NCBI GenBank assembly: GCA_025937835.1
Contig: JAICQO010000014.1
Span: 1 to 64,000 of the forward strand
From: Polyangiaceae bacterium
Lineage (GTDB): Bacteria > Myxococcota_A > Polyangia > Polyangiales > Polyangiaceae
Reading direction: 5' to 3'
Length of the DNA stretch: 64,000 bases
The notes under the pieces were generated by a model. The model saw only the letters and a list, made by a program, of their open reading frames with translations, did not search any database and was not told where the DNA came from. This document shows, piece by piece, positions 14,044-41,464 of this stretch (positions are counted from its first letter, which is position 1; every line of letters begins with the position of its first letter). A program made the position numbers and the translations under genes.

Positions 14044-14936
14044 GAGCCGGCCCCCGGGAGGACGCGCTGGCCCTGTGCGTCGTAGCGATAGAAGCCGCGG
14101 CCGGTCTTCTTTCCGAGAAACCCGGCAGCGACGAGGTTCTTGAGCAACATGGCGGGCCGATACTTGTCGTCGCCGAACTCGCGCTGGAGCACGTCGGCGA
14201 TCGCGAGCACGGTGTCGAGGCCCACGAAATCAGCGAGCTCGAGCGGGCCCATCGGATGGTTGAGCCCGAGGCGCGCCCCCTGATCGATGTCTTCGGCGCT
14301 GCCCACGCCTTCTTGCAGGGCAAAACAAGCCTCGTTCAAGAGGGGCAGCAGCATGCGATTGACCAGGAAGCCGGGCCGGTCCTCGCTCGCGATCACGAGC
14401 TTGTCGAGGCGCGTGGCCAGCGCGCGACCGAGCTCCATCGTCTCGGCCGAGGTGGCGACGCCGCGCACCAGCTCGACCAGCTTCATCAACGGGACGGGGT
14501 TGAAGAAATGCATGCCGAAGAAGCGTTCGGCGCGCTTCGTGTGCGCGGCCAGGCGCGTGATCGAGATGCTGGACGTGTTGGAAGCGAACACCGCCTCGGG
14601 TTTGGCGAGCGCCTCGGCGCGGCCGAAGAGGTCGAGCTTGAGCGCCAGATTTTCGGGAGCGGCCTCGATTACGAGGTCGGCCGGGCCGACGGCCTCGTCG
14701 AACCCGAGCGGCTCGAGGTTCCGGGCGACGGTGTCGCGGACCTCGCGCTCGACCTTGCCCTTGTCCACCAGGCGATCGAGGCTCTTCAAGATCTTGTCGC
14801 GTCCCGCGCTGGCGCGCTCCACGCTGACGTCCGAGAGCGTGACGCGGAAGCCTTGCGCCGCGGCGACCTGTGCGATGCCGGCCCCCATTTGCCCTGCCCC
14901 GAGCACGGCGATCACGCGAACTTCGGCGGCGTTCAT
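14040..14936 (-). CDS. 3-hydroxybutyryl-CoA dehydrogenase
   Basis: A 298-residue NAD(P)-dependent dehydrogenase interconverting 3-hydroxyacyl-CoA and 3-ketoacyl-CoA. The Rossmann motif is VLGAGQMGAGIAQ (11-23). The substrate-domain signature includes NTSSISITRLA, HFFNPVPLMKLVELVRG and DRPGFLVNRML. The C-terminal part has the family's GLNHPMGPLELADFVGLDT. Length matches the short single-domain HBD/PaaH type rather than the FadB fusion. The ATG at 14936 directly precedes the first strand. It heads the operon with the crotonase and the FG-GAP-like lipoprotein, and is divergent from the TPR lipoprotein gene. Confidence 0.93.
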   Translation of the reverse strand: MNAAEVRVIAVLGAGQMGAGIAQVAAAQGFRVTLSDVSVERASAGRDKILKSLDRLVDKGKVEREVRDTVARNLEPLGFDEAVGPADLVIEAAPENLALKLDLFGRAEALAKPEAVFASNTSSISITRLAAHTKRAERFFGMHFFNPVPLMKLVELVRGVATSAETMELGRALATRLDKLVIASEDRPGFLVNRMLLPLLNEACFALQEGVGSAEDIDQGARLGLNHPMGPLELADFVGLDTVLAIADVLQREFGDDKYRPAMLLKNLVAAGFLGKKTGRGFYRYDAQGQRVLPGAGS

Positions 14937-14974
14937 CGAATTTTCGTAGCGCGGGGAGTTGGGTTTTGGCAAGC

Positions 14975-15898
14975 ATGAGCCTTGCCCGGCTAGGAGCCAG
15001 CGCCTTGCACCGCTCAAAACGCACGAGCGCGTCCCGCGCATCCCGCTTTGCGCTCGGGCTTTCGATCGGCCTGTGGGCGTGCACCCCACAACCCGGGCAG
15101 CGCGCCCGCGAAGCGATGCTGCTCGCCGATACGGGCCAGAACCGTGAGGCGCTCGAGCTGCTCGAGCAGCACCTCGCGAAACAGCCGAAGGCGGAGCTCG
15201 AACGGCGACTCGCGGTGCGGCTCTCGGGCGCGCTCGGCGATCTCGGTCGCGCCGAGCGCCACGCCGCAGCGCTCGAACAGCAACTCGGGCCACGAAGTCC
15301 GGCGCCCGCGCTCGAGCTCGGTCATGCCCTCGAGCTTACCCACCGCTACGAAGAGGCACTGGCGCTCTACGATCGAGCTGCCGAGCTCGCGCCAAACGAT
15401 CCGGCCGGCCCACGAACCGGAGGAATGCGGGCGGCGGCTTGGGGCGAGGTAGAGCTGGCCGAGCCGCGTCTCGCGGAAGCGGCTCGGCGCGATCCGAAGG
15501 ACGCGCGCACCTGGCACGCGCTCGGGCTGGTGCGCGCTCGGCTCGGCGAGCTCGAGGGCGCCGAGCGCGCCTACCAGGCTGGCCTCGCGTCCGATCCACG
15601 TGGAACCGACAATCGCGTCGGGCTCGCGACGCTGGCGCTGCTTCGTGACGATCCGCGGGCGGTCCTCGGAGAGTACGACGCGCTGCTCGCAATGCACCCT
15701 GCGTTTGCCGACGCACACCTAGGGAGGTCGTGGGCTCTTGTCCGACTCGGCCGTTTCGCCGAAGCTGCCCAGGCGCTCGACCACGCCGAGCGCCTGGGCG
15801 CCGATCGCGTGACCCTCGCGAACCAGCGCCGCTGGCTCGAGCTGGAACGCGCGAGCGAGCGGGAACGGGCGCGGAAGACACGCGCGCGAACCCCATGA
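14975..15898 (+). CDS. TPR-repeat protein, probable lipoprotein
   Basis: A 307-residue protein. A basic N-terminus and hydrophobic stretch FALGLSIGLWAC, with a cysteine at the lipobox position, suggest membrane anchoring, though the n-region is long. The rest is TPR: NREALELLEQHLAKQPK, YEEALALYDRAAELAPNDP, DARTWHALGLVRARLGELEG, AERAYQAGLASDP and FAEAAQALDHAERLG. These are protein-protein scaffolds with no catalytic motif. The gene lies 118 bases upstream of the giant repeat protein on the same strand, and the pair may form one transcription unit with the MlaEF-like genes. Confidence 0.82.
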   Translation: MSLARLGASALHRSKRTSASRASRFALGLSIGLWACTPQPGQRAREAMLLADTGQNREALELLEQHLAKQPKAELERRLAVRLSGALGDLGRAERHAAALEQQLGPRSPAPALELGHALELTHRYEEALALYDRAAELAPNDPAGPRTGGMRAAAWGEVELAEPRLAEAARRDPKDARTWHALGLVRARLGELEGAERAYQAGLASDPRGTDNRVGLATLALLRDDPRAVLGEYDALLAMHPAFADAHLGRSWALVRLGRFAEAAQALDHAERLGADRVTLANQRRWLELERASERERARKTRARTP

Positions 15899-16016: not shown

Positions 16017-19000
16017 ATGCATTCCCAAGAGATCCGCAGGGCGCTCGGAAAACTTCAGGTCGAACCGGACGCAGAGCAAGCGTGGGCGACGCTGACTTCA
16101 GAAATCACGACCAACGACGGTGACCTATCGCGAGAAGATCTCGTGCGGCTGCTCGATGCGGCGCGCGAGGAGCACGCGCGGCGCGGTGAATGGCACGCCG
16201 TCGCGCGCTTGCTCGAGGTCTCGGTCAAAGTAGCCGAACACACGCCGCACGAGGCAGACCTCGTCGCCGCGCAAGCGCGCGTGCTCGCCGAAGAGCTGTA
16301 CGACGACGAGGGGGCGGCGATCCTCTACCTGCGGCTGCTCGAGCTCCGGCCCAACGAGGCCGGCGCGCAGTCGGCGATTCAGGAGAGCGAGGGGCGGCGC
16401 GGTCGCTACCAGGAGCTCGTGAAGAGCTATCTGGCCGAAGCCGAAGAGGCGAGCGACGACATCTACAAGAGCTCGATGTTGATGCGCGCCTCGGAGATGG
16501 AGGTTCGCTACGGCGGCAGCGGCATCAACCTGGAGCAGGCGATCGATCGCGTGGAGCAGGCCGTGCGCCTCGACGCCACCAACGCCCGCGCCAGCCGCTT
16601 GCTCGAGCACCTCTACCGCCGCTCTTCGCGCTGGGAAGAGCTCGCGCGCGTGCTGGAACGCCTCGCCGATCAGAGCGAGCAGCCGCGCGAGCGCGTCGCC
16701 GCGGGTACGCGCCTGGCGCGCGTCTACGCCCAGCACCTCGACGACAAGGAGCGCGCAGCGCGCGCCTACGATCGCGTGCTGCGCGACGAGCCCGGCTACG
16801 CCGAAGCCACGAGCTTCCTGTCCGAGTTCTACGGCGCCGAGAACCGCTGGGCGGAGCTCGTGGGGCTGTACGAGCGCGAGCTGAAGTCGAAGGAGATGCA
16901 CGAGAGCGAGCGCCTGGGCGACATGCTCCAGATCGCGATGCTCTACTGGAAGAAGCTCGAGCGCCCGCAGGACGCCGAGCCCTGGTTCGAGCGCGTGCGC
17001 AAGGTCGAGCCGACCAACGAGGTGATGCTCGGTTTCTACCGCGAGTACTGCACCGCGCTCGGCGACGAAGCACGGTTGATGGACGTGCTCCAGGGCGCCC
17101 AGCGCGCGCTGCGCGACGGCTCGAAGGACAAGGCCAGAGTCGCGCAAGAGATCGCGCGGCTCGCGGAAGGCCAGGCCAACGCGCAGAAGGCGATCGAACA
17201 GTACAAGTCCGTCCTGCGTCAGGATCCCGATCACGACGAGGCGCGCGAGCGTCTGAAGACGCTCTACAAGCAGACCCAGGGCTACAACGCGCTGGTCGAG
17301 CTGTTGCGCGTGCAGCTCGAGCGCACGCCGCTCGATCAGTACCAGACGCGGCTCGGCATCTTGCGCGAGGTCGCGACCGTGTACCGGCAGTACCAGAAGA
17401 GCGACGCCGCGTTGCTCTCGGTGCTGAGTCAGATCGTCCAGCTCGACGACAAGATCGACGAGCACGATCTGGAGGAGCTGCGCGAGATCGTGCAGCTCTA
17501 CGAGCGGCTCGGCCGTCACCGCGACCTCATCACCCACCAGTTGAAGCTGGCCGAGGTGACGCCCGACGTGGAAGAGAAGCGGGAGCTCTACCGCTCTGCC
17601 GGCCGACGCTGGCTCGAGCAGTTCTCGAACGCGCAGAACGCGACCGAGGCCTTCGAGAAGCTGCTCAAGGTGGCGCCGTCGGACGAAGAAGCCAGGCGGC
17701 GTCTCGACGAGCTGTACCGGAAGCGCCGCGCCTGGAACCAGCTTTACGAGCTGTACGCGTCCGAGCTCGCCGACAAGCAGGGCTCGGAGCGGCTGACCTT
17801 GATGCGGGAGATGGCGCAGCTCGCCCAGGAGCGCCTGAACAAGCCGCAAGACGCGATCACTCTTTACCGGCAGATCCTCGAGATCGATCCGGATCGAGTG
17901 GAGATCCTGGACTCGCTCGAGAAGCACGCCGAGCGCTCCAAGGATTGGGCGACGCTGGCGGACGCGCTCGAGCGCCGCGCGGCGATCGCGAGCGACGATC
18001 AATCGCGGCTCGCCACGCTGCAGAAGCTCGGCTCGGTTTACTCCGAGCACCTCGGCAACGCGGAGTCGAGCGTGCGGACCTGGCGGCGTGTGCTCGAGCT
18101 GTCGCCCGGGCACAGCCGCGCCTTGCGGGTGCTGCGCGAAGCGTACCTCGCGAGCGAGAACTACGACGGGCTCGAGCAGCTCTACGCCTCGCAGAACGAC
18201 TGGGAGGGCCTGGCCGAGGTGCTGAGCAACGCGGCAGATCGCGCCAAGGAGGCGCCCGCGCGCATCGAGCTCAGCTACCGCGCCGCGCGCGTGCTCGAGC
18301 AGAACCTGAACCAGCCGGACCGTGCCTTCCGCTCGTACGAGCGGATCTTGCTGGCCGATCCGGGCGACGTGAAGGCTGCTCGCGCGCTGATCCCGCTCTA
18401 CGAAAAGGACGAGAAGTGGTCGCGCCTGCCGGCGCTGTACGAGCTGCTCCTCGAAAAGTCGGACGATCCCGAGGAAAAGCTCGCGCTGTACACGCGCCTC
18501 GTGGAGGTCACCGGCAGGCGGCTCGGCGATCGCCGGAGCGCGGCGGGCTACGCGCGGCGCGCCTACGAGCTTGCGCCCGACGAACCGAGCGCGCTCGTGT
18601 TGTTCGAAGACGCGTCGCGCGCGGCGGGCGCGTGGGAGTCGTTCGTCGAGGCGCTCTCGGCACGCCTGCCCGCGGCGGATGCCACGCCCGTACCACGCGA
18701 AGAGCCGTCGGCCGCGACTGCCGCGCAGACCCCGGTCACGGAAGGGGAGCCGAAGAAGAGGGGCAAGAAGAAGAAGCGCGGCCCTGAGCCGTCGTCGCCC
18801 TCGGCTTCCGTCCCGCCGCCGCCTCCGGCGGAGGGGCGTGACCTGGAGCGCCGCGCGCTCGAGCTGAAGCTCGCCCGCGTCTACTCCGACGAGCTCAACC
18901 GCGTCGACGACGCCGTGGCGATCTACAAGCGATTGCTCGAGCGCGACCCGAGCGACGCCGAGGTCACGGCCGTGCTCGAGAACATCCTGCGCACGGGAGA

Positions 19001-22000
19001 TCGCCGCGACGATTTGCGTTGGTTCTTCGAGCTGCGCGTCGAAAGCGCGGGAGACGCGGGCGAAAAGCGCCGGCTGCTCGCGGAGTACGCGGGGCTCGAG
19101 GAAGAGGCGTTCGAGGCGCCCGAGCGCGCGGTGAACCTGTACCGCCGCATGCTCGAGCTCGACGCGGGCGACCGCACGGCGCTCACGACGCTACCCAGGC
19201 TCTTGCTCGCCCAGGGCGACGCGGCGGGAGCGGCCGAGGTGATCGCGCAGCACCGAGATCAGCTCGTCGGCGAGGGCCGCGCCGAGCTCGAGGCGGAGCT
19301 CGCCGAGCTCTACCTCGAGCGCCTGAGCCGCCCGGAAGATGCGCTGATCAGCGCCATCGCGGCGCTCGGCTCGCCCGAGCGCGCCACGCGGGCGATGGTG
19401 GTGCTCGAGGCGCTCGTGCGCATCGACAGCGTGCGCGAGCGCGCCGCGTCGGTGCTGGCCGAGCGCTACGCGGAAGCCGGCGACGTCCGCAAAGAGGTGC
19501 AGGCGTTGGAGGTGATGCTGGCCGGCTCGAGCGATCCTGCCGAGCGCCGGATCTTGATTCAGCGGCTCACCGACGCCCACGAGACCAAGCTCTCGAGCTA
19601 CGGTAGCGCGCTCGACGTGCTCTTGCGCGCCGTCCGCGAGTTCCCGAGCGATCTCGAGCTCTGGACCCGCGCCGACAGCCTGGCGGTGTCGGCGGGGCGC
19701 CCGACCGATCTGGCCGAGGCGTTCCGCGAGGTGTTGCGTGCACCGCTCGACCGCGATCTCGAGATCGAGCTCTCCGAGCGCGCCGCGCACCTGTTCGAAG
19801 ACAAGCTCGGCGACCCGATCGGGGCGACGCCGTACCTCGAGCGCGTGCTCGGGCTCGAGCCGAGCAACGAGGCCGCGTTCCGCCGCCTGAAGGACATCCT
19901 GACCGCAGCGGAGCGCTGGGGTGAGCTCGAGGCGCTCTACGATCGGGCCGCGAACGCGACCGACGACACCACGCGTCGGATCGAGATGTTGGTCGAGGTC
20001 GCGCTGATCTGCGAAGAGATCATCGAGGACGCGGCCAAGGCCACCCGCTACTACGAGCGGATCGCGGCGATCGACCCGCTGCACGAGGGCACGAACCGGG
20101 CGCTCGATCGGCTCTACGTCGCGCAGCACAAGGACCAGGAGCTGTCGGCGTTGCTCGAGCGGCGGCTCGAGACGGCCGAGGGCGACGAGGCCTTCGAGCT
20201 CAAGCTGCGGCTGGCGCGGCTCAAGCTCGACCTGCACGAGCCCGACAAGGCCGTGAGCCACGTCGAAGACGTCCTCACCGCGCGCGTCGGCGACTACGAG
20301 GCGCGCGAGCTCGCGGAGCGCATGCTGGAGATCGGCGAGCTCCGGCAGCGCGCGGCCTCCATGCTCGAGCACGTCTACGAGGCGCGCGACGAAATTCGCG
20401 ATCTGGTGCGCGTGCTCGAGATCCGCCTCGAGGGCCTCGCCGAGCAGAAGACGCAGACGGCCGCGGACGAACGCCGCGAGCTCTTGCGCCGCATCGCGCA
20501 CCTGCGCGACGACCGGCTGCACGACGACGAGAGCTCGTTCGACGCCTTCGCGCGGCTCGTGCCGCTCGAGCCGGGCGACACCGAAGCGCGCCGCCGCTTG
20601 ATGGAGATCGGCCGCCGGCTCGGGACGCACGAGCGCGTCGCCCGCGTGCTCGCCCAAGCCGCGCAGAACACCGAGGATCCGGCGCTCCGCGGCGAGATCT
20701 TGATGCACGTCGCCGCCACCTACGACGAGCTCGTGGGCAACCGGAACGAAGCCGAGCGCGTGTACCGCGAGGTGCTCGACATCGACCGCAGCAACGCCGA
20801 CCTGACGCTGCCCGCCGCGCGTGCGCTCGAGCGCATCTACGTCGGGGCCGGCGACAACGCCAAGCTGGCCGAGATGCTCCGCATCGAGGTCGCGCTCGAG
20901 ATGGAGTCGGCCACGCGCCAGCGCATCCTGGGCCGCCTCGGCGACCTGTGCGAGCGCGAGCTCTACGACAACGACGGCGCGATCGCGGCCTGGAAGCAGC
21001 GGCTGGACGAGGCCGGTGACGACGAGGCCGCGCTGTCGGCGCTGGATCGCCTGTACGAGAAGACCGAGCGCTACCGCGACCTGGTCGAGGTCATGCGCCA
21101 GCGCGCCGAAATCGGCACCGACTCGATCTTGCGCCGCCGCTTGCTCGAGCGCATCGCCGAGGCGTTCTGGAAGCGGCTCGAATCCACCTCGGAGGCGATC
21201 GACGCCTACCGCGCGCTGATCAGCGAGTACGGGCCCGACGGCGACTCGCTGCGCGCGCTCGAGACCCTGTTCGAATCCTCGGAGCGCTGGGAGGATCTCG
21301 GTGAGACCCTCGAGCAGCACATCGAGATCGCGAGCTCCGACGCCGAGCGGCTCGAGCTCCTGGCCCGGCTCGGGGACATCAAGCGCGAGCGCTTGCTCGA
21401 CGTGCCGTCGGCGCTCTCGGTATACCGGAGAGCGCTCCTGCTCGACAGCCGTCACGCGGCGAGCCGCGCCGCGCTCGACAAGCTGCTCGACTCGCCCGAG
21501 GCGCAGTCGCGGCGCGAGGCGGCCCAGGTGCTGCGGCCGATCCTCGAGGGCGAGGGCGCCTACGAGCAGCTGTTGCGCGTGCTCGAGATCGAGATCGAGA
21601 CCTCGGAAGACGCGCTCGAGAAGCTCGGCAGTCTGGAGCTCGCGCTCAACGTGGCGGAGCGCTCGCTGTCCGACTCGAACCGCGCGTTCGGCTACTCCGA
21701 GCGGGCCGTGCGCACCGCGGTCGGCCACACCGACCTCCTGCCGTGGTTCGGACACGTCGAGCGCCTGGCCAACGTGACCGGCCGGCACCGAGAGCACGTC
21801 ACGCTGCTGAGCGACGTCGTGCCGAACATCTTCGACGGGCAGGTCCAGCTCGACGTCACGTTGAAGATCGCCGATCTGGCCCGTCAGAAGCTGTCCGATC
21901 GCGATCTGGCGCGCGACTACTACAAGAAGGCGCTCGAGATCCGCGCCGACGAGCGCCACGCGCTGGCAGCGCTCGAAGTGCTCTACGAAGAGAGCGGCGA

Positions 22001-25000
22001 CGCCAAGAACCTGCTCGAGGTGCTCGAGCGGCGCGCCGACATCGCCGAGACCGACGACGACAAGAAGCAGCTGATGTTCCGGCGTGCGCGGCTGCTGTCG
22101 GACGTGCTCGACGACAAGCCGCAGGCCATCGAGGTCTACCAGGTGATCCTGGACCTCGGGCTCGAGCGGCAGGCGCTCGACGCGCTCGAGACGCTGTACA
22201 CCGGCGCCGGTCGCTGGGCGGACCTGATCACGCTCTACGAGCGACAGCTCGACGCCCGCCTCGGCTCGGCCGCCGATCTACACGTCAGCATCGGCCGCGT
22301 CGCGGCGCAGAAACAGGGCGACATCCCGCTCGCCTTCGAGCAGCTCGAGGAGGCGCTCAAGCTGGATCGCCAGCACACGGGCGCGATCGCCGAGCTCGAG
22401 CGGCTGCTTCTCGAAGCCCCCGAGCTCGAGCAGCGAGCCCACGCCGCGGCGCTCCTCGAGCCCGTGTACCTGGCTCGCGCCGACTACACGCGCGTGATGG
22501 ACACGATCCGCGCTCGCCTCGAGTACGCGCCCGGCCTCGAGGAGCGGCGCGAGCTGCTCACGCGCCTCGCTCAGCTCTACGAAGAGCAGAAAGAGGATTA
22601 CCGCGCCGCGCTCGAGACGATCGCCCGACTGTTGCACGAGGACGTCAGCGACGAATCCACCGTTCACGAGCTCGAGCGCCTGGCCAAGGTGGCCGGCGCC
22701 GAGGATCGGCTGGCGGAGATCTACGCCACGGAGCTCGGCACGATCGACGCCGACGACGCGCACAGCGCGACGCTCGCGCGCCGCACCGGCGAGCTGTTCG
22801 ACTCCCTCGGCAAGCCCGACCGCGCGCTCGAGTTCTACCGCCGTGCGCTCGAGTTCTCGCCCGAGAGCCGCTCGCTGTTCGACTCGATCGACGCGATCTT
22901 GAAGCGCCTTTCGCGCCACGAAGAGCGGGTCAAGCTCTACCGCGGCGCGCTCGAGCACCGCTTCGATCCGGCGGATCGGCTCGCGACCCTGCACACCATC
23001 GCCGCGCTCGAGCGGCGTGAGCTCGGCCGGGCCGACGACGCGATCGAGACCTACCGCGCCGCGCTCGAGGTCGAGGACATGGATCCTCGCACGCTCGACG
23101 CCCTGGCCGAGCTGTACACGGAGCGCGGTCGCTGGGAAGACCTGGCCGAGCTCTACCTGAGGCGCGCCGAGACGGCGAGCGACGCCAACGTGGCGGCCGA
23201 TTACCGCTTGTCACTCGCCAAGCTACACGTGCAGACCGGGCAGCTCGAGCGCGCCGTCGATCAGCTGGAAGAGATCGTGCGCGTGCTGCCGAGCCACGCG
23301 CAGGCCATCGCCGAGCTCGAGTCGCTGCGTAAGAGCGAGCCGCTGCGCGAGCGGGTGGTCGACATCCTGCGGCCGCTGTACGAAGCCGCCGACGACTGGC
23401 GACGCCAGATCACGCTCAACGAGGATCGCTTCACGCTCGCCAATGACGCCGCCGGTCGAGTGGCGGTGCTGCGCGAGACCAGCGAGCTCTGGGAGCGGCG
23501 CGGCAACGACGAGAAACGCGCGCGCCGCGCGATGGAAGCTGCCGTTCGCATCGATCCCGAGGACGGCGACGTGCGCCGTGAGTACGAGCGGTTGACCGAG
23601 CAGACCCACTCCTGGGATCAGTTCACCGAGGTCTACGAGGAGGTCCTGGCCGAGAACCCGGAGCTCGCGAGCCGCCGCGACATGCTGCAGATCCTGGCCG
23701 AGGTGCACGATGCGCGGCGCAACGATCCGCGCCGCTCGCTCGAGGCCTACGATCGACTGCGCGCGACCGACGAGACCGACATCGGCCCGCTCGAGAAGAT
23801 GGAGGCGCTGGCGACGTTGCTCAGCGACTGGCCGACCCTGGTGCGCGTCCTGACGGCCAAGGCCGACTTGCTGCTCGACGACGGCGAGCGGGCCAGCGTC
23901 TGGCGCCGCGTGGGCGAAGCCAAGCGCGACATGCTCGACGACGCCGATGGCGCGATCCAGGCCTACGAGCGCGCGCTCGACCTCGATCCGGAGAGCGCCT
24001 TCACGCTGGATTGCTTGATCGAGCTGTACGAGGGCCGGCGCGACGCGCCGCGCCTGGTGGAGCTCTATCAGCGCCGCGTCGAGCTCGCGGAGGACGACGA
24101 CGCGGATCTCAAGTTCACCCTGCTCACGCTGGCGGCCGCGGCCTACGAGAAGGAGCTTTCGGATCGCACCCGGGCCATCGAAGCGCTGGTGCAGGCCCTT
24201 TCCGTGCGCCCCGGCGACGAGGGCGTGCGCGACAGCCTGAACCGGCTGTACCGCGCCGAGGCGATGTGGCCGGAGCTGCTCGACAGCCTGCGCGGGCAGG
24301 CCGAGGCCACGAGCGAGCCCACGGCGCGCGCCGCTTTGCGCCGCGAGATCGGCGACATCCTCGCCGACAAGCTGAGCAGCCTGGAGGAGGCGCTCGAGTC
24401 GTATCGCCTCGCGCTCGATGACGCGCCCGACGAGATGGCGATCGTCACCAAGGTGCGCACGCTGGGCGAGGGCCACGAGGATCTGCGCTCGCCGGTCGCG
24501 GCCGTGCTGGTACCGGTGTTGAAGCGCACCGAGCGCTGGGAAGCTCTGGCCGAGGTGCTCGAGCTCCGGCTCAGCGTCGAGACCGACCCCGGCGATCGGA
24601 CTCAGACGCTGGTGGCGATGGCGGAGGTGCTGGAGACGCGCCTCGGTCGCGTCACGGACGCCGAGACTGCGCTGCTTCGCGCGCTCGCGGAGCGGCCCGA
24701 CGCCGAGGACCTGCACCGCGAGGTGACGCGACTCGCCTCCGGCTCCGGCAGCTGGTCGCGCTACGCGGACGTGCTCACCGAGCGCGCTCAGGCCACCTTC
24801 GAGCCCGAGGTCGTCAAGGACCTCTACGTGCGCCTGGCCAAGGTCGCAGAAGACAAGCTCGGCGACGACCGGCGCGCCGTCGAAGGCTACGTGAAGGCCA
24901 TCGAGCAATCGGGCGACCAGCCCGAGCTCCTCGACGCGCTGGATCGGCTGTACCAGCGGCTCGCCGATCACACCGCGCTCGCCGACGTGCTCGAGCGGCG

Positions 25001-27398
25001 CGTTTCGGTCGAGGACTCGGACAAGCGCCAGGCCGAGCTGTTCTACCGCCTGGCCGTGCTCCAGAACGACCAGTTCAAGGAGAACGCTCGGGCGCTCGGC
25101 TCGCTGCGCACTGCCATCGAGCGCGATCCCGAGCACGAGGCTGCCGTCTCGGAGCTCGAGAAGCTCACTCGGGAGCCGGAGCTGTTCGAGGAAGCAGCCG
25201 AGGTGCTCGAGAGCGTGTACCGCACGCGCAGGCACACCGACCGCCTGGCGAGCCTGTACCAGCAGCGCGTCGAACACGCGGACACGACCGGCGCCAAGGT
25301 CGAGATGCAGAAGGCGCTGGCGCGCGTGCTCGAGGACGACGTGCGCGACCCGCGCGGGGCTCAGCGCGTGATCGAAGCGAGCCTGCTCACGTCCCCCGGC
25401 GATCACGAGCTCGTGGACGAGCTCGAGCGCCTGGCGGGCATCACCGGCGAGTGGAGCTCGGCCGGCGCGGCCCTCGAGAAGGCGCTCGAACAGCACGCGG
25501 AGCTCGAGACCGAGGCGGCCGTGGAGCTGTGCGTGCGACTCTCGGGCTGGCTCAAGGATCGGGCCTCCGATCCGGCCGGTGCCGAGCGCGTCCTGGCGCG
25601 GGCCCTGCGCTACGACGCCGAGAACGACGACGTGTTGGCTCGTCTCGAGGCGCTGCAGACCGGCCCGGGCCGCGAGCGCGACCTGTTCGAGACGATCCGG
25701 CGCCGCGCCAAGCTCCAGCTCGACGACCACAAGCGTGAACGGCTCTACCAGCAGGCCAAGGAGATCGCCGACGGCCTCGGCGACCACCAGGCGGCCGAAG
25801 CCGTGCTGCGCGAGCTGCTGTCGCTCGACGACATGAACGGCTGGGCCCTCGACAGCCTGACCGTGCTGCGCGAGCTCGCCGGTGACTACAAGGAGACCTT
25901 CGAGCTTTTGGTTAGACAGAGCGAGCTGTCGACCGATCCGGCAAGCACGCGCGAGCTCCAGCGCAAGGCCGCCGGAATCGCCCGCGACCGGCTCGAGGAC
26001 ACGCCGCGCGCGATCGAGCTCTTCGAGCAGCTGTTCGAGGACGACTCGTCCGACGACACCGCGGCCACGGCGCTGCGCTCGCTGTACGCCGAGCAAGGCC
26101 GTTTCCAGGACCTGGGCCGGCTGATCGAGCGCCTGATCGACGTCGCGACCTCGCCCGGCGAACGCAGCAAGCTCCGCATCGAGCTCGCCAAGCTGAGCGA
26201 GGAAAAGTTCGCGTCGCTCGATACGTCCATCGATCAGCTGCGCGCGGTGCTCGAGGACGAGCCCGGCCACGAGCTCGCCGTGGTGCACCTGAGCGAGCTC
26301 TACGAGCGCACCCAGCGCGACGAAGAGCTCGCGTCGCTGCTCTCGACACAGATCGAGGACGCTCAGGCCCGGAACGACCTGGACGCGGAGCTCCGCTTCC
26401 AGACGCGGCTCGGCGATATCTACGAGGCGCGCCTGCGTGACCGTTCGCGCGCCATCGAGACCTATCGCAGCGTGCTCGAGCGCAAGCCCGACCATCAGGG
26501 TGCGCTCGAGGCTCTCTCACGCTTGCTCACGGCCGACGGCCGGCTCGACGAGGCGACCGAGGTCATGGAGAAGCTGCTCGCGCTGGCTAGCGGAGACGAA
26601 GCCGTTCGCCGTTCGCTGGAGCTCGCGGGCGTCTACGAGAAGCAGGGCCAGAACGACAAGGCCGCACACGCGCTCGAGGTCGGGCTCAAGGCAGACCGCC
26701 GCAACCTGGAGATCAGAAAGCGGCTGCGCCCGCTGTTCCAGGCGGCGGCGGATTGGCAGGCCCTGGCAGAGCTCTCGTCCGAGGAGGCGGAGTTCGCCGA
26801 GGCTCCCGAGGCCGCCGTGCAGCTCCTGCGCCAAGCCGCGACGATCCACGCCGAGAAGCGCGACGATCTGTTCAAGGCCGCGGAGCTGCTCGAGCGCGCG
26901 ACCCAGCTCAAGCCGAACGACCGCGAGCTCTTGCTCGAGCTCTGCGACGTCTACGGCAAGAGCGGGCGCGGCCGCGACGCGGTGCGGGTCCTCGAGCGAG
27001 TCGTGGAGAGCTACGGTCAGAAGCGCACCCGCGAGCTCGGCGAAATCCACCGCCGGCTCGCCAACGCCTACATCGCCGATGGCGAGGTCCAGCGCGCGCT
27101 GGAAGAGCTCGACAAGGCCTTCCGCATCGAGCCCGGAAATCTGCAGGTCCTCACCTTGCTGGGCGACGTGGCGATCCAGGCCAAGGACTACAAGAAGGCG
27201 CAGCAGATGTACCGCGCGCTCTTGCTCCAGAAGCTCGACGAGGGCGCGCCCATCAGCAAGAGCCAGGTCTTCCTCCGTCTCGGCGACATTCACGAGGCGA
27301 TCGGCGAAACCCCCAAGGCGATTCAGATGTACGAGCGCGCCGTGCAGACGGACGGCCTGGAAGAAGCCAAGGAACGCCTGAAAACCCTGAAGAAGTAG
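16017..27398 (+). CDS. Giant TPR/helical-repeat protein (3793 residues)
   Basis: One uninterrupted 11.4-kb frame with ATG at 16017 and GAGGA just upstream. There is no signal peptide and no transmembrane segment, so the protein should be cytosolic, of about 420 kDa. Nearly all of it is an imperfect repeat of about 70-75 residues, each holding two TPR-like hairpins. The recurring theme is R-W-x-x-L, then L-E-x-R, A-x-L-x-E-x-x-L, A-I-x-x-Y-x-x-x-L, D-P and L-x-x-L-Y; roughly fifty units fit the length. A Lys/Pro-rich hinge breaks the solenoid at about residues 888-941 (KKRGKKKKRGPEP, then PPPPP). The C-terminal 120 residues (IEPGNLQVLTLLGDVAIQAK) are the most canonical TPRs. It precedes MlaE and MlaF-like genes by 46 bases. 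A scaffold role is inferred; no named homologue is claimed. Confidence 0.92.
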   Translation: MHSQEIRRALGKLQVEPDAEQAWATLTSEITTNDGDLSREDLVRLLDAAREEHARRGEWHAVARLLEVSVKVAEHTPHEADLVAAQARVLAEELYDDEGAAILYLRLLELRPNEAGAQSAIQESEGRRGRYQELVKSYLAEAEEASDDIYKSSMLMRASEMEVRYGGSGINLEQAIDRVEQAVRLDATNARASRLLEHLYRRSSRWEELARVLERLADQSEQPRERVAAGTRLARVYAQHLDDKERAARAYDRVLRDEPGYAEATSFLSEFYGAENRWAELVGLYERELKSKEMHESERLGDMLQIAMLYWKKLERPQDAEPWFERVRKVEPTNEVMLGFYREYCTALGDEARLMDVLQGAQRALRDGSKDKARVAQEIARLAEGQANAQKAIEQYKSVLRQDPDHDEARERLKTLYKQTQGYNALVELLRVQLERTPLDQYQTRLGILREVATVYRQYQKSDAALLSVLSQIVQLDDKIDEHDLEELREIVQLYERLGRHRDLITHQLKLAEVTPDVEEKRELYRSAGRRWLEQFSNAQNATEAFEKLLKVAPSDEEARRRLDELYRKRRAWNQLYELYASELADKQGSERLTLMREMAQLAQERLNKPQDAITLYRQILEIDPDRVEILDSLEKHAERSKDWATLADALERRAAIASDDQSRLATLQKLGSVYSEHLGNAESSVRTWRRVLELSPGHSRALRVLREAYLASENYDGLEQLYASQNDWEGLAEVLSNAADRAKEAPARIELSYRAARVLEQNLNQPDRAFRSYERILLADPGDVKAARALIPLYEKDEKWSRLPALYELLLEKSDDPEEKLALYTRLVEVTGRRLGDRRSAAGYARRAYELAPDEPSALVLFEDASRAAGAWESFVEALSARLPAADATPVPREEPSAATAAQTPVTEGEPKKRGKKKKRGPEPSSPSASVPPPPPAEGRDLERRALELKLARVYSDELNRVDDAVAIYKRLLERDPSDAEVTAVLENILRTGDRRDDLRWFFELRVESAGDAGEKRRLLAEYAGLEEEAFEAPERAVNLYRRMLELDAGDRTALTTLPRLLLAQGDAAGAAEVIAQHRDQLVGEGRAELEAELAELYLERLSRPEDALISAIAALGSPERATRAMVVLEALVRIDSVRERAASVLAERYAEAGDVRKEVQALEVMLAGSSDPAERRILIQRLTDAHETKLSSYGSALDVLLRAVREFPSDLELWTRADSLAVSAGRPTDLAEAFREVLRAPLDRDLEIELSERAAHLFEDKLGDPIGATPYLERVLGLEPSNEAAFRRLKDILTAAERWGELEALYDRAANATDDTTRRIEMLVEVALICEEIIEDAAKATRYYERIAAIDPLHEGTNRALDRLYVAQHKDQELSALLERRLETAEGDEAFELKLRLARLKLDLHEPDKAVSHVEDVLTARVGDYEARELAERMLEIGELRQRAASMLEHVYEARDEIRDLVRVLEIRLEGLAEQKTQTAADERRELLRRIAHLRDDRLHDDESSFDAFARLVPLEPGDTEARRRLMEIGRRLGTHERVARVLAQAAQNTEDPALRGEILMHVAATYDELVGNRNEAERVYREVLDIDRSNADLTLPAARALERIYVGAGDNAKLAEMLRIEVALEMESATRQRILGRLGDLCERELYDNDGAIAAWKQRLDEAGDDEAALSALDRLYEKTERYRDLVEVMRQRAEIGTDSILRRRLLERIAEAFWKRLESTSEAIDAYRALISEYGPDGDSLRALETLFESSERWEDLGETLEQHIEIASSDAERLELLARLGDIKRERLLDVPSALSVYRRALLLDSRHAASRAALDKLLDSPEAQSRREAAQVLRPILEGEGAYEQLLRVLEIEIETSEDALEKLGSLELALNVAERSLSDSNRAFGYSERAVRTAVGHTDLLPWFGHVERLANVTGRHREHVTLLSDVVPNIFDGQVQLDVTLKIADLARQKLSDRDLARDYYKKALEIRADERHALAALEVLYEESGDAKNLLEVLERRADIAETDDDKKQLMFRRARLLSDVLDDKPQAIEVYQVILDLGLERQALDALETLYTGAGRWADLITLYERQLDARLGSAADLHVSIGRVAAQKQGDIPLAFEQLEEALKLDRQHTGAIAELERLLLEAPELEQRAHAAALLEPVYLARADYTRVMDTIRARLEYAPGLEERRELLTRLAQLYEEQKEDYRAALETIARLLHEDVSDESTVHELERLAKVAGAEDRLAEIYATELGTIDADDAHSATLARRTGELFDSLGKPDRALEFYRRALEFSPESRSLFDSIDAILKRLSRHEERVKLYRGALEHRFDPADRLATLHTIAALERRELGRADDAIETYRAALEVEDMDPRTLDALAELYTERGRWEDLAELYLRRAETASDANVAADYRLSLAKLHVQTGQLERAVDQLEEIVRVLPSHAQAIAELESLRKSEPLRERVVDILRPLYEAADDWRRQITLNEDRFTLANDAAGRVAVLRETSELWERRGNDEKRARRAMEAAVRIDPEDGDVRREYERLTEQTHSWDQFTEVYEEVLAENPELASRRDMLQILAEVHDARRNDPRRSLEAYDRLRATDETDIGPLEKMEALATLLSDWPTLVRVLTAKADLLLDDGERASVWRRVGEAKRDMLDDADGAIQAYERALDLDPESAFTLDCLIELYEGRRDAPRLVELYQRRVELAEDDDADLKFTLLTLAAAAYEKELSDRTRAIEALVQALSVRPGDEGVRDSLNRLYRAEAMWPELLDSLRGQAEATSEPTARAALRREIGDILADKLSSLEEALESYRLALDDAPDEMAIVTKVRTLGEGHEDLRSPVAAVLVPVLKRTERWEALAEVLELRLSVETDPGDRTQTLVAMAEVLETRLGRVTDAETALLRALAERPDAEDLHREVTRLASGSGSWSRYADVLTERAQATFEPEVVKDLYVRLAKVAEDKLGDDRRAVEGYVKAIEQSGDQPELLDALDRLYQRLADHTALADVLERRVSVEDSDKRQAELFYRLAVLQNDQFKENARALGSLRTAIERDPEHEAAVSELEKLTREPELFEEAAEVLESVYRTRRHTDRLASLYQQRVEHADTTGAKVEMQKALARVLEDDVRDPRGAQRVIEASLLTSPGDHELVDELERLAGITGEWSSAGAALEKALEQHAELETEAAVELCVRLSGWLKDRASDPAGAERVLARALRYDAENDDVLARLEALQTGPGRERDLFETIRRRAKLQLDDHKRERLYQQAKEIADGLGDHQAAEAVLRELLSLDDMNGWALDSLTVLRELAGDYKETFELLVRQSELSTDPASTRELQRKAAGIARDRLEDTPRAIELFEQLFEDDSSDDTAATALRSLYAEQGRFQDLGRLIERLIDVATSPGERSKLRIELAKLSEEKFASLDTSIDQLRAVLEDEPGHELAVVHLSELYERTQRDEELASLLSTQIEDAQARNDLDAELRFQTRLGDIYEARLRDRSRAIETYRSVLERKPDHQGALEALSRLLTADGRLDEATEVMEKLLALASGDEAVRRSLELAGVYEKQGQNDKAAHALEVGLKADRRNLEIRKRLRPLFQAAADWQALAELSSEEAEFAEAPEAAVQLLRQAATIHAEKRDDLFKAAELLERATQLKPNDRELLLELCDVYGKSGRGRDAVRVLERVVESYGQKRTRELGEIHRRLANAYIADGEVQRALEELDKAFRIEPGNLQVLTLLGDVAIQAKDYKKAQQMYRALLLQKLDEGAPISKSQVFLRLGDIHEAIGETPKAIQMYERAVQTDGLEEAKERLKTLKK

Positions 27399-27444
27399 CC
27401 GGGCGCGACAAGCGCGCGTTCGCTGGTGGATAAATGGTTCGGAC

Positions 27445-28323
27445 ATGACGAGTCAGGATCCGCTGCCGGCGCGGCGCTCGACGCTGCCCTACAACCCGCG
27501 CTCCGAATACAGGCGGCGCGCGGGGTTCCTGGGCTCGATCGGCCGCGGCGCAATCGCCTGGGTGTACGGCGCCTCGGCGCTGTTCGGCACGCTGGGGCTG
27601 GCGCTGACTTCCTTCGCGACGCCGGGCCGGGCGGCGGCGCGCACGGTGCGAGCCGTGACCTTATCGCAGATCTTGTTCACGGGCGTGCAGGCGGTCTCGC
27701 TGGTGAGCGTGATCGGTCTGTTGATCGGCGCGACGATCGTGATCCAGACCAGCCTGATGGTGCCGGGCGCCGACGGCGACCTGCTCGGCAAGATCGTGGT
27801 CGCGGTGGTCCTGCGCGAGCTCTCGCCGCTGATCACGGCGATCATCGTGGCGGGTCGCTCCGGGACGGCTATCGCCACCGAGCTCGGCAACATGAAGGTG
27901 AGCGGCGAGATCCTGGCCTTGACCTCGCTCGGCATCGATACGCCGCGCTTCATCGTCTGGCCGCGGCTCGTCGCGTCGGTGCTGAGCGTCGTGGCGTTGA
28001 TGGTGTATTTCAGCTTCGTGGCGGTGATGGCCTCCGCGGTGCTCGGCCAGGCCGTGCTCGGTCCGAGCCCGGCCGAGCTGCGCTCCGGGATAGCGCGCGC
28101 GCTGACGCTGCACGACCTGGTGTTGTTCGTGGCCAAGGGCGTGGGACTCGGCACGATCGTGGGCTGGATCGCCTGCCATTACGGGCTCTTGGTGAAGAGC
28201 TCGCCGACCGAGGTGCCGAAGCAGGCCAGCGCCGCCGTGGTGCGGATGCTGCTCGGCGCCGTGATGTACGACTTTGCGCTGACCGTCGTGTTCTACTGGT
28301 TGGTCGGACCGCCGCTCCGCTGA
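27445..28323 (+). CDS. MlaE-family ABC transporter permease
   Basis: A 292-residue inner-membrane permease of the MlaE/YrbE family, which moves phospholipids or other lipids between inner and outer membrane with MCE-domain partners. After a polar N-terminus come an amphipathic helix and about five membrane spans. Family signatures are the conserved core VVLRELSPLITAIIVAGRSG, then TAIATELGNMKVSGEILAL and the late VKSSPTEVPKQAS turn. Length is typical. It lies between the giant TPR gene and an MlaF-like ATPase on the same strand. No MCE (MlaD-like) or MlaC/MlaB gene is in the window, although MlaEF is normally accompanied by an MCE protein. Confidence 0.92.
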   Translation: MTSQDPLPARRSTLPYNPRSEYRRRAGFLGSIGRGAIAWVYGASALFGTLGLALTSFATPGRAAARTVRAVTLSQILFTGVQAVSLVSVIGLLIGATIVIQTSLMVPGADGDLLGKIVVAVVLRELSPLITAIIVAGRSGTAIATELGNMKVSGEILALTSLGIDTPRFIVWPRLVASVLSVVALMVYFSFVAVMASAVLGQAVLGPSPAELRSGIARALTLHDLVLFVAKGVGLGTIVGWIACHYGLLVKSSPTEVPKQASAAVVRMLLGAVMYDFALTVVFYWLVGPPLR

Positions 28324-28330
28324 GGGACCC

Positions 28331-29014
28331 TTGAAACTCGGCCTCGAACTCGACCACGTCAGCTTTCGGTACGGCGATCTGTGGGTGTTTCGCGAGCTCA
28401 CGCACACGCTGCCGATGGGCGGAAATCTGGTGGTGATCGGCGAAAACGGCGTCGGAAAGTCCACGCTGCTCTACCTGTGCGCGGGCCTGACGCAGGCCAG
28501 CACGGGCAACGTCTATCTGTCGGGGCACGCGCCGAACCCGACCCGGCCGAGCGAGCTGTTCCGAAACGGCGTGCGCCGCGGCTTCGTGTTCTACGCCGGC
28601 GGCCTGCTCTCCAACGCCACGGCGCTCGGCAACGTCACTCTCGCCCTGCGCTACCACGCCGACGTGCTCGGCCTGAGCGAGTCACAGATCGACAGGCGGG
28701 CGCGCGATCAGCTCACCGAGCTACGCGTCGCGCAGACTGATTTCCACGCGCTGCCGGCGCACCTGTCGGTCGGGGTGCGGCGACGGGTCAGCCTGGCGCG
28801 AGCGCTGGCGCTAACCCCGAATTTCCTGTTCCTGGACGATCCCGACTCGAACCTGGATACCCAGACCAAGCACCTGGTCTACGAGCTGCTCGAGCAGAAG
28901 CGTGACGACCCCGCCGTCACGCTGCTGGTCACGACCACGAGCCCGGAGCTGGTGGAGCGGCTCGGCGTGCCGCCCCACGAGCTCGCGCACGGCTACCTCA
29001 TGGCCCGGATTTGA
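28331..29014 (+). CDS. MlaF-like ABC ATPase with degenerate catalytic motifs
   Basis: A 227-residue nucleotide-binding subunit paired with the MlaE permease. Walker A is intact (GENGVGKST, 37-45), but other motifs deviate. The Q-loop Gln of VFQ is Tyr (FVFYAGG, Y88), the signature is LSVGV (145-149) instead of LSGGQ, the Walker B Glu is Asp (FLFLDDPD, D170), and the H-loop His is Thr (LLVTTTS, T202). E. coli MlaF keeps all of these. The protein may bind ATP but hydrolyse it poorly. It starts at TTG 28331 behind GAGGGA that overlaps the mlaE stop. Its 3' end overlaps the convergent FKBP gene by 17 bases. Confidence 0.88.
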   Translation: MKLGLELDHVSFRYGDLWVFRELTHTLPMGGNLVVIGENGVGKSTLLYLCAGLTQASTGNVYLSGHAPNPTRPSELFRNGVRRGFVFYAGGLLSNATALGNVTLALRYHADVLGLSESQIDRRARDQLTELRVAQTDFHALPAHLSVGVRRRVSLARALALTPNFLFLDDPDSNLDTQTKHLVYELLEQKRDDPAVTLLVTTTSPELVERLGVPPHELAHGYLMARI

Positions 29015-29945
29015 TCTGGAGCAGCTCGATGTCGAAGACCAGCGTTCCCGAAGGCGCGCCGGGGCGCGTCGGCTTGTCGCCGTAGGCGAGATCTCCCGGG
29101 ATCCAGAAGCGGGCCTTCTCTCCCTCGACCATCAGCTGCACGCCCTCGGTCCAGCCCTTGATCACGCCGTTCAGGTTGAAGCTCGAGGGTTGGCCGCGCT
29201 GCACCGACGAGTCGAACATCTTTCCGTCGGTGGTCCAGCCGGAGTAGTGCACCGTGACCCGGTCGGTGGCCTTCGGGTGGGCCTTGCCCGTGCCCTTCTT
29301 CAGCACGCGGTAGGCGAGGCCCGAGCCCGTGCGCTTCGCCGTCGCGGGTGGAGCCTTGACGTCTTCGGGTGCCTTCGGCGCCGCGAGGATCTCGAGCAGC
29401 TCGACGTCGAAGGTCAGGTCCCCCGCGGGCGCGCCCATGCGCGGCGTGTCGCCGTAAGCGAGCTTGCCCGGGATCCACAGCCGGCGCTTCTCGCCGACGA
29501 CCATCAGCTTCAGCGCTTCCGTCCAGCCGGGGATCACCTGTGTCACGCCGAAGCTCGCGGGTTCGCCGCGCTCCACGGACGAGTCGAACATCTTTCCGTC
29601 TTTGGTCCAGCCCGTGTAGTGGACCTTGACCTGGTCGGCGTCGGTGGGGTGCTCCTTCGACTTGCCCGGCGTGAGCACCTTGGTCACGAGGCCCGACTCG
29701 GTTTTCTTCGCGTCGGCCGGGGGTTTGGCCACGTCCTCCGGCGCCGGGATGCCCTTCGGCGCTTCTGCGCTCGGCGCCGCGGTCTCCGCCGGCGCGGGGG
29801 TGGTGGCCGCCGCGGGAGCTTCGCTCGCGGCCGCCGCCGGGGTGGCTGCGGGCTCGGCAGTGGCCGAACCGCTGGGCTCGGCGAGCTTCTTCTGACAGGC
29901 GGGGATCGCGAACGCGAGGATCAGGACGGGCAGGTAGGTCCGCAT
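28998..29945 (-). CDS. Tandem-domain FKBP-type peptidyl-prolyl isomerase lipoprotein
   Basis: A 315-residue exported folding catalyst. Signal with lipobox AIPAC (C17), then a long Ala/Pro/Glu-rich spacer (20-75), then two FKBP domains. Each has the VKVHYTGW or VTVHYSGW strand, DGKMFDSSV, the IPGWTE or IKGWTE active-site loop, G-E-K-R/A with WIPG, LAYGD and the terminal FDVELLEI or FDIELLQI strand. The domains are clearly duplicates of each other. It should accelerate proline isomerisation in secreted or outer-membrane proteins. ATG at 29945 was chosen because the longer frame adds a non-signal-like N-terminus. It is monocistronic and convergent with the MlaF-like gene. Confidence 0.92.
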   Translation of the reverse strand: MRTYLPVLILAFAIPACQKKLAEPSGSATAEPAATPAAAASEAPAAATTPAPAETAAPSAEAPKGIPAPEDVAKPPADAKKTESGLVTKVLTPGKSKEHPTDADQVKVHYTGWTKDGKMFDSSVERGEPASFGVTQVIPGWTEALKLMVVGEKRRLWIPGKLAYGDTPRMGAPAGDLTFDVELLEILAAPKAPEDVKAPPATAKRTGSGLAYRVLKKGTGKAHPKATDRVTVHYSGWTTDGKMFDSSVQRGQPSSFNLNGVIKGWTEGVQLMVEGEKARFWIPGDLAYGDKPTRPGAPSGTLVFDIELLQIKSGP

Positions 29946-32471: not shown

Positions 32472-33257
32472 ATGTCGATGGTGAGCCGCGGTGTGGAGAC
32501 CCGACCCGACGCGGCGCGCGGGCTCCGGGGCTCTGGGCTCTTCGTCTACAACCTCGTCTATTGGCCGTATCTGATCGGCACCTGCGTGGTGTTTTTCGTG
32601 CCCGCGCTGTTGATCTTCTGCGTTTCGTTCTGGCAGCGCCCGCGCCGCTGGCTGCACGCGTACACGTCCGTCTGGGGCGCGCACTACTTGGCGTGGGCCC
32701 CCTACGCCGGCGTGCGCGTCGAGGGGCGCGAGAGAGGGCTCGACATCGGCCGCTGCGTCTACGTCGTGAACCACCAGTCGATGGTCGACATCCTCGCGGT
32801 GTACGCCACGCGCCTGCCGTTCCTGTGGGTCAGCAAGCGCGCCAATTTCATGGCGCCGTTCCTGGGCTGGAACATGTGGCTGAACGGCTACGTGCCGCTG
32901 CGGCGCGGGCATCTACCGAGCATCCGCCGCATGCTCCGCAAATCCGAGGCCGAGCTCCGCGCGGGAGCCAGCCTGTGCGTGTTCCCCGAGGGCACCCGCT
33001 CACGCGACGGAGAGCTCAAGGCATTTTACCGCGGCGCCTTCTGGATCGCGGTCCGCGCAGGCGTACCCGTCGTGCCGATCGTGGTCGATGGCACACACAC
33101 GATCCTCGCCAAGGGCAAGGTCGGCATCCGGCCGCGCCCCGTCACCGTGCGCGTGCTCTCGCCGATCACGCCCGAAGAGGCAGAGAACGACGACCGAAAG
33201 CTCTCCGCGCTCGTGCACGCGCGCATGGCCGAAGAGCTGCGCCAAATGCGGCGCTGA
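32472..33257 (+). CDS. 1-acyl-sn-glycerol-3-phosphate acyltransferase (PlsC family)
   Basis: A 261-residue membrane-associated acyltransferase. A hydrophobic N-terminal hairpin (about 24-55) anchors it. Motif I is NHQSMVDI with catalytic H101 and D106. Motif II lies in the LGWNMWLNGYVPLRRG region, motif III is FPEGTRSR (171-178), and motif IV is VPVVPIVVDG. These match PlsC, which makes phosphatidic acid. Related enzymes such as OlsA O-acylate lyso-ornithine lipid, a meaningful alternative here because an N-acyltransferase-like gene is nearby. It is convergent with the ConA-like lipoprotein gene, 4 bases away. Confidence 0.92.
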   Translation: MSMVSRGVETRPDAARGLRGSGLFVYNLVYWPYLIGTCVVFFVPALLIFCVSFWQRPRRWLHAYTSVWGAHYLAWAPYAGVRVEGRERGLDIGRCVYVVNHQSMVDILAVYATRLPFLWVSKRANFMAPFLGWNMWLNGYVPLRRGHLPSIRRMLRKSEAELRAGASLCVFPEGTRSRDGELKAFYRGAFWIAVRAGVPVVPIVVDGTHTILAKGKVGIRPRPVTVRVLSPITPEEAENDDRKLSALVHARMAEELRQMRR

Positions 33258-39889: not shown

Positions 39890-41464
39890 ATGTCCGTCCC
39901 TTCCGAGCGCTGCACCATGCGCAATCCGCTCGAGCTGCGAAACAAGCCGGGTGCCCGGCCGTACGTCGCCACGTACGTCGAGAACCCGTACGCGGAAGAG
40001 AATCCGTTTCGCGTGCAGAGCCGGGGGTCTCCGAGCGAGTGGCCGCGCTTCGAGCGAGCGATCGCCGAAACCTTGCCGATGCCGGTGTATCCGTCGCGAC
40101 CCGAAGTCGTGGCCTGCTACCGCCGCTGTTGGGAGATCGCGTTCGCGAACTTCCGGCGCGCGACGGACGAGAACGGGTTCGTCTCCGACTACTCGTCGAC
40201 GATGTTCGAGCAGTCCCTGTACCAGTGGGATTCCGTGTTCATCACGCTGTTCGGGCGCTACGGCGATCGCGCCTGGAAGTTCCAGCGCACCCTCGACAAC
40301 TTCTACGCGAAGCAACACCCCGACGGCGGGATCTGCCGGCAGTTCCTCGAGGACGACGGCAGCGAGTGCTTCGCGCGCTTCGATCCGGCGGGTAGCGGGC
40401 CCAACGTGCTCGGCTTCAGCGAGTGGGAGTACTACCGCTTCTTTCAGGACAAGGAGCGGCTCTCGCGCGTGTTTCCGGCGCTGGTTGCCTACGGCCAGTG
40501 GTACCGGCGCTACCGCACCTGGCCGAACGGCAGCTACTGGGGCACGGGTTGGGCAAGCGGCATGATCAACCAGCCGCGCACGCCCGAGGGCTCGCACCTC
40601 TGGTACGACCACGCGCATCGCACCTGGGTCGATACCAACCTGCAACAAGTGCTCGCCAACCGGGTGCTGCTCGAGATGGCGGACGTGCTCGGGCGCCGCG
40701 AGGAGATCCGCGATTTCGAAGAAGAGAACGCGCTGCTCGTGCCCTGGATCAACGAGCACCTGTGGGACGAGTCGACCGGCTTTTATCACGACCTCGAGCG
40801 CAGCCAATCGCGCGTCGTAACGGTGAAGACGATCGGCGCTTACTGGGCCCTGCTCGCGGATGCGGTGCCGCCCGAGCGCCTCGAGCGCTTCGTCGATCAT
40901 CTGCGGCGAGAAGACGAATTCAAGCGCGTGCACCGCGTGCCGAGCTTGTCGGCCGACACCGAGGGCTACGATCCCGACGGCGGCCTCTGGCTCGGCGGCG
41001 TCTGGGCCCCCACGAACTACATGGTGCTGCGCGGCCTGAGCCGTCACGGCTACCACGACCTCGCCTACGAGATCGCGCACAACCACTACTTCAACGTCGT
41101 GGAGAGCTTCGCGAAGACCGGCAGCGTGTGGGAGCATCTGGCACCCGACGCCAGAGCCGAGGGGCGCGGGCGAAAGGACTTCGTGGGCTGGACGGGGATC
41201 ACGCCGATCGCCGTGCTGTTCGAGTACATCCTGGGACTCGAGCCCGAGCCCGCCCGGCAGCGCCTGGTCTGGAACCTGCGCACGGTCGACGAGATCGGCG
41301 TGCAGCGCTATCCGTTCGGGAGCGCGGGCTCGCTGGACCTGCTCGTCAAGGCGCGCACGGATCCAGAGCAGGAGCCTGAAATCGTGGCGCGCACCAACCA
41401 GCCGCTCGAGCTTGCGCTAATCTGGGCGGGCGGTCGGCGCACGGAGCAGCTGATACCAAAATGA
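39890..41464 (+). CDS. GH63/GH37-like (trehalase/glucosidase family) protein
   Basis: A protein of about 524 residues with an (alpha/alpha)6-barrel glycosidase pattern and no signal peptide, hence cytosolic. Family-like segments are EQSLYQWDSVFITLFGRYGD, WKFQRTLDNFYAKQHPDGGI, LWLGGVWAPTNYMVLRGL, SVWEHLAPDA and DFVGWTGITPIAVLFEY. Related enzymes hydrolyse trehalose, glucosylglycerate or oligosaccharide glucose caps. At the position where I recall a catalytic Asp in SG-M/W-D-N-S-P-R, this protein has SGMINQPR, so activity or mechanism may differ. Start choice is uncertain: ATG 39890 is used, and ATG 39917 (MRNPLELRNKPG) is equally plausible. Its stop overlaps the next gene (ATGA). Confidence 0.75.
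   Translation: MSVPSERCTMRNPLELRNKPGARPYVATYVENPYAEENPFRVQSRGSPSEWPRFERAIAETLPMPVYPSRPEVVACYRRCWEIAFANFRRATDENGFVSDYSSTMFEQSLYQWDSVFITLFGRYGDRAWKFQRTLDNFYAKQHPDGGICRQFLEDDGSECFARFDPAGSGPNVLGFSEWEYYRFFQDKERLSRVFPALVAYGQWYRRYRTWPNGSYWGTGWASGMINQPRTPEGSHLWYDHAHRTWVDTNLQQVLANRVLLEMADVLGRREEIRDFEEENALLVPWINEHLWDESTGFYHDLERSQSRVVTVKTIGAYWALLADAVPPERLERFVDHLRREDEFKRVHRVPSLSADTEGYDPDGGLWLGGVWAPTNYMVLRGLSRHGYHDLAYEIAHNHYFNVVESFAKTGSVWEHLAPDARAEGRGRKDFVGWTGITPIAVLFEYILGLEPEPARQRLVWNLRTVDEIGVQRYPFGSAGSLDLLVKARTDPEQEPEIVARTNQPLELALIWAGGRRTEQLIPK

Follow-up and report, generated by a model that had tools for sequence, protein, structure and literature searches.

A divergent MlaEF pair with a catalytically degenerate ATPase next to a giant TPR gene in a Polyangiaceae bacterium

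Gene content of the locus

Analysis of the window (the whole 64,000-nucleotide stretch of Polyangiaceae DNA considered here) showed a TPR lipoprotein gene, a giant TPR gene and an MlaE–ATPase gene pair in succession on the forward strand. The features discussed below were:

14870..15898, + strand: TPR lipoprotein with lipobox ...LWAC (Pfam TPR); belongs with the giant downstream of it rather than with MlaEF
16017..27398, + strand: giant cytoplasmic TPR solenoid protein of 3793 aa, distant paralog of GltI/AgmK (Pfam TPR, order-wide orthologs, repeat period)
27445..28323, + strand: MlaE-family permease, its lineage divergent and spanning several phyla (PF02405, E 5.5e-50; AlphaFold2; trees)
28331..29014, + strand: MlaF-like ABC ATPase (ABC_tran, E 9.2e-21; AlphaFold2)
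28998..29945, − strand: FKBP peptidyl-prolyl isomerase, convergent with MlaF; a neighbour not considered part of the system
32478..33257, + strand: acyltransferase (PF01553, Pfam), with a counterpart near MlaF in 7/7 other genomes of the genus
41461..42324, + strand: class-IV aminotransferase, outside the genus the gene type directly 3′ of the giant

The spacings given in the original prediction were borne out by the ORF coordinates: the lipoprotein gene, whose TPR character agreed with Pfam, lies 118 nt upstream of the giant gene, which in turn ends 46 nt before MlaE. The ATPase gene starts 7 nt after MlaE. The true start of the lipoprotein is probably downstream of 14870. A FeeM-type N-acyl amino acid synthase was present beside the cluster (30128-30883, − strand). 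A promoter/terminator scan between the window genes returned nothing convincing.

The giant had been described as an uninterrupted helical-repeat ORF of 3793 residues. Its length and its TPR repeats, identified by Pfam and with a dominant period of 72 aa, were confirmed, but it is not uninterrupted, the repeats being broken around residue 920 by a Pro/Lys-rich stretch of ~55 residues. No transmembrane or hydrophobic segment was found. With an 800-aa piece as query, orthologs of similar length were found across the order, so the ORF is not a chance one.

The permease and the MCE genes of the genome

The assignment of the permease to MlaE was upheld by the Pfam match (PF02405) and by its AlphaFold2 model, which showed a normal fold (pLDDT 87.9) and whose best PDB matches were all MlaE/YrbE. 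Within the genus, dN was well below dS for both MlaE and MlaF, and the possibility that MlaF is a decaying pseudogene was rejected on this ratio.

The statement that no MCE gene is present held for the surroundings of MlaEF; the search of the rest of the genome gave three MCE genes, none beside the window MlaEF, plus four other MlaE genes. One MCE gene belongs to a full MlaE-MlaE-MlaF-MCE cluster at C2, and the other two have no adjoining MlaE. One of the three is located on the same contig (C8:92341), 28 kb beyond the window end. Among the Polyangia loci, none of 23 had an MCE gene adjoining MlaEF. Both unlinked MCE groups were present throughout the order, with or without a window-type MlaE; phylogenetic profiling for a dedicated unlinked partner was consequently uninformative and no such partner was identified.

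Degeneracy of the ATPase

The ATPase (P0003; 227 aa) scored higher against the models of FtsE and LolD than against that of MlaF, so that it is named MlaF mainly for its MlaE neighbour. Its AlphaFold2 model showed a normal ABC fold of the MlaF/LolD type (pLDDT 93.6). The match to E. coli MlaF ends at residue 210 of 269, and the C-terminal extension of MlaF is absent.

In the window protein, the catalytic Glu is replaced by Asp (D170), the H-loop His is missing and the Q-loop Gln is replaced by Tyr, while Walker A is intact; Walker B reads FLFLDDPD and the signature LSVGV. The predicted catalytic degeneracy was thus confirmed, and it extends well beyond this genome: Asp substitutes for the catalytic Glu, and the H-loop lacks its His, in all 23 readable Polyangia orthologs (window included). 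An intact Walker A and signature Ser/Gly were seen in 23/23 readable orthologs and the D-loop Asp in all of them, and the Q-loop Gln was lost in some members only, the window ATPase among them. Conventional MlaF sequences sampled kept the Glu in 9/9 and the His in 8/9. These data support MlaEF as a variant pair, conserved across the clade, in which the ATPase is catalytically degenerate. In E. coli, MlaF variants E170Q and K47A do not complement (PMC7367683), and E170Q cuts ATPase activity by ~80% (PMC7784689).

A cross-phylum MlaE lineage with graded erosion of the ATPase

Scanning the genome collection for relatives of the window MlaE gave 80 sequences. The first 23 (43-76% identity) carried titles of Polyangia, Myxococcales or vaguer proteobacterial origin, and none had an adjacent MCE gene. 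The other 57 (32-46% identity) came from Nitrospirota, Spirochaetota, Elusimicrobiota, Geobacteraceae, Kiritimatiellota and others; an MCE gene was directly downstream in 49 of these loci, commonly followed by a TPR lipoprotein gene in those looked at. Of the eight loci without MCE, four stop at a contig end or close to it, L204 groups with the Polyangia clade, and three are from Geobacteraceae (L211, L221 and L223), where neither an ATPase nor an MCE gene was detected alongside MlaE of the same lineage.

The window MlaE lineage was separated from conventional MlaE with a support of 100/100 in a 43-row tree; a 101-row quick tree (SH-aLRT only) gave the same outline with weak deep order. By its sequence relationships, the window MlaE is placed in a cross-phylum lineage that is usually organised MlaE-MlaF-MCE, and the window system has most likely lost its linked MCE gene.

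The ATPases of this lineage ranged from intact to strongly eroded. In Spirochaetota, the Glu and the His were each present in 14/15 sequences, and in Nitrospirota Asp replaced Glu without the His in 13/13. Walker A was present in 0/4 ATPases of the Geobacteraceae type and in 0/6 of the Kiritimatiellota group, with the caveat that the motifs were read from a profile alignment of very diverged sequences, in which single positions of the Walker-less group are uncertain. These ATPases, without a recognisable Walker A, are retained in MlaE-ATPase-MCE operons both in the Geobacteraceae type (L220, L232, L233, L240) and in Kiritimatiellota and relatives (L226, L229, L230, L235, L245, L213). The three Walker-less proteins checked still scored above the Pfam ABC_tran cut-off, and comparison of three of the Geobacteraceae type indicated purifying selection (dN/dS about 0.14-0.24). 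No description of an eroded MlaF in MCE operons was found in the open-licence literature searched, and the main result to retain is the erosion of the ATPase in this MCE transporter lineage that spans several phyla.

Linkage of the giant gene to MlaEF

The giant–MlaE–MlaF order was kept in all eight genomes of the genus, counting G004, in which the giant is divided between contigs. The gap between giant and MlaE was 12-46 nt in seven of the eight and 238 nt in G001; the short gaps make co-transcription within the genus plausible. The genes 3′ of MlaF varied among the species of the genus, with the acyltransferase recurring nearby.

Outside the genus, the gene following the giant in the fetched loci was mostly that of a DUF374 protein (Pfam) and/or a class-IV aminotransferase, and a window-type MlaE was beside the giant in none of them. 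Genes for DUF374 and/or class-IV aminotransferases accompanied the giant TPR gene across the order (L087-L117); the aminotransferase gene of the window sits 12 kb further along. Conversely, no giant ortholog was found beside the MlaEF orthologs of five other genera (G036, G016, G014, G012, G013), the giants of which were on other contigs, with a split match in G013. MlaE (L173), MlaF (L249) and giant (C63) were on three contigs in G404, a MAG for which a binning error is possible.

The giant gene therefore occurs in related genomes without mlaEF beside it, an observation that the original prediction had itself named as its refutation; the shared gene order was found within the genus and was not found outside it. 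The pairing of giant and MlaEF is real at the genus level, and the giant is probably a recent operon neighbour of MlaEF: within the genus, MlaEF would have come to lie directly after the giant, probably in one transcript. The occurrence of the giant across the order without MlaEF, and of MlaEF elsewhere without the giant, speaks against the original prediction of a dedicated scaffold or tether and favours the simple adjacency that it had named as the alternative. A genus-specific version, in which MlaEF is bound by the giant as its scaffold or tether in the cytoplasm, would fit the gene order, which all eight genomes retain at ~60% protein identity and seven of them with short gaps, while the genes after MlaF were rearranged; given the order-wide giants without adjoining MlaEF, the MlaEF orthologs without a giant and the unlinked genes of G404, we consider it improbable.

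An ortholog of the TPR lipoprotein precedes the giant in the genus and also in four genomes without a close relative of the window MlaE (G020, G028, G009, G034), which indicates that the lipoprotein goes with the giant and not with MlaEF. Its origin as a relict of an MlaE-MlaF-MCE-TPR lipoprotein operon was rejected, as no specific similarity was found.

In Myxococcus, the gliding (Glt) machinery includes the giant TPR protein GltI/AgmK (PMC3169522). A second giant TPR protein of ~3,790 aa is encoded in the same genome (L107; G000:C132), downstream of a TPR lipoprotein gene and near GltG, and because of this position it is probably the GltI/AgmK of the gliding machinery. The window giant resembles GltI/AgmK in being a very large cytoplasmic TPR protein that has neither a signal peptide nor a transmembrane segment, and both giants of this genome are downstream of a TPR lipoprotein gene. 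However, the window giant is located outside any glt cluster, only the L107 giant adjoins GltG, and the two share ~25% identity. The window giant probably represents an older cytoplasmic scaffold, related to GltI/AgmK and independent of MlaEF.

Proposed function

Based on the observed arrangement and distribution of the genes, the loss of motifs, the purifying selection and the MCE linkage in relatives, our preferred reading, to which we assign a probability of roughly 0.55, is that MlaEF constitutes a reduced, hydrolysis-impaired, slow or ATP-gated lipid transporter of the MCE type, with the giant as a separate neighbour in a probable genus-level operon. MlaE would form the membrane channel, and the ATPase would still be equipped for ATP binding and dimerisation. 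With Asp as the general base and no H-loop switch, its cleavage of ATP should be slow. MlaEF could then act as a phospholipid valve that is gated by ATP, slow or mostly passive, either connecting the inner membrane with an MCE protein from another locus or working alone. Slow hydrolysis, passive or gated transport and the partnership with an unlinked MCE protein are what we infer from these features. Lipid moves spontaneously from MlaD to MlaC in vitro, and the need for ATP at each Mla/MCE step and the direction of lipid transport are open questions (PMC7790496).

The window pair shares the MlaE fold and the adjacent ABC ATPase with MlaFEDB of E. coli and A. baumannii, but differs from it in having no linked MCE gene (MlaD) and an ATPase without the catalytic Glu, the H-loop His and the MlaF C-terminal extension. 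Variant MCE systems with rearranged parts exist, such as the chimeric Mla-Pqi system Mpc of Brucella (PMC12436622); its abstract makes no mention of an eroded ATPase.

Extended to the whole lineage, a more tentative interpretation, which we put at somewhat less than even odds, is that the ATPase of these MCE transporters underwent erosion, which in several lineages went as far as a pseudo-ATPase devoid of ATP-binding motifs, and that it stayed under selection as a structural or regulatory part, with lipid passing passively via MlaE or with another energy source; the window MlaEF would represent an intermediate stage. Retention of the ATPase gene despite the greater loss in other phyla raises the question of what drives such transporters, and the MlaE systems, with ATPases graded from intact to devoid of Walker motifs, provide a natural protein set for tests of hydrolysis-free lipid transport.

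Several points weigh against the impaired transporter. Some hydrolysis is possible with Asp, the two unlinked MCE groups occur order-wide with no dedicated partner identified, and a canonical ATPase, e.g., one of those at the C2 locus (L053), could combine with the MlaF subunits. According to the strongest alternative, MlaF is still an active ATPase whose rate is only tuned by the Glu-to-Asp change, and an MCE protein from an unlinked gene serves what is otherwise an ordinary Mla transporter. The intact Walker A, signature Ser/Gly and D-loop Asp of all orthologs and the three MCE genes of the genome would agree with this, but the Glu and the H-loop His were lost together in every ortholog and the gene is kept in the Geobacteraceae and Kiritimatiellota operons without any Walker A, so that we regard it as unlikely, at about one chance in four. 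A mixed dimer of the degenerate MlaF with a canonical ATPase encoded elsewhere, which like asymmetric ABC transporters would have a single active site, appears very unlikely: the C2 locus does encode two more MlaF-type ATPases, with DEP Walker B motifs, but in nearly all Polyangia loci MlaE is followed by its own degenerate MlaF.
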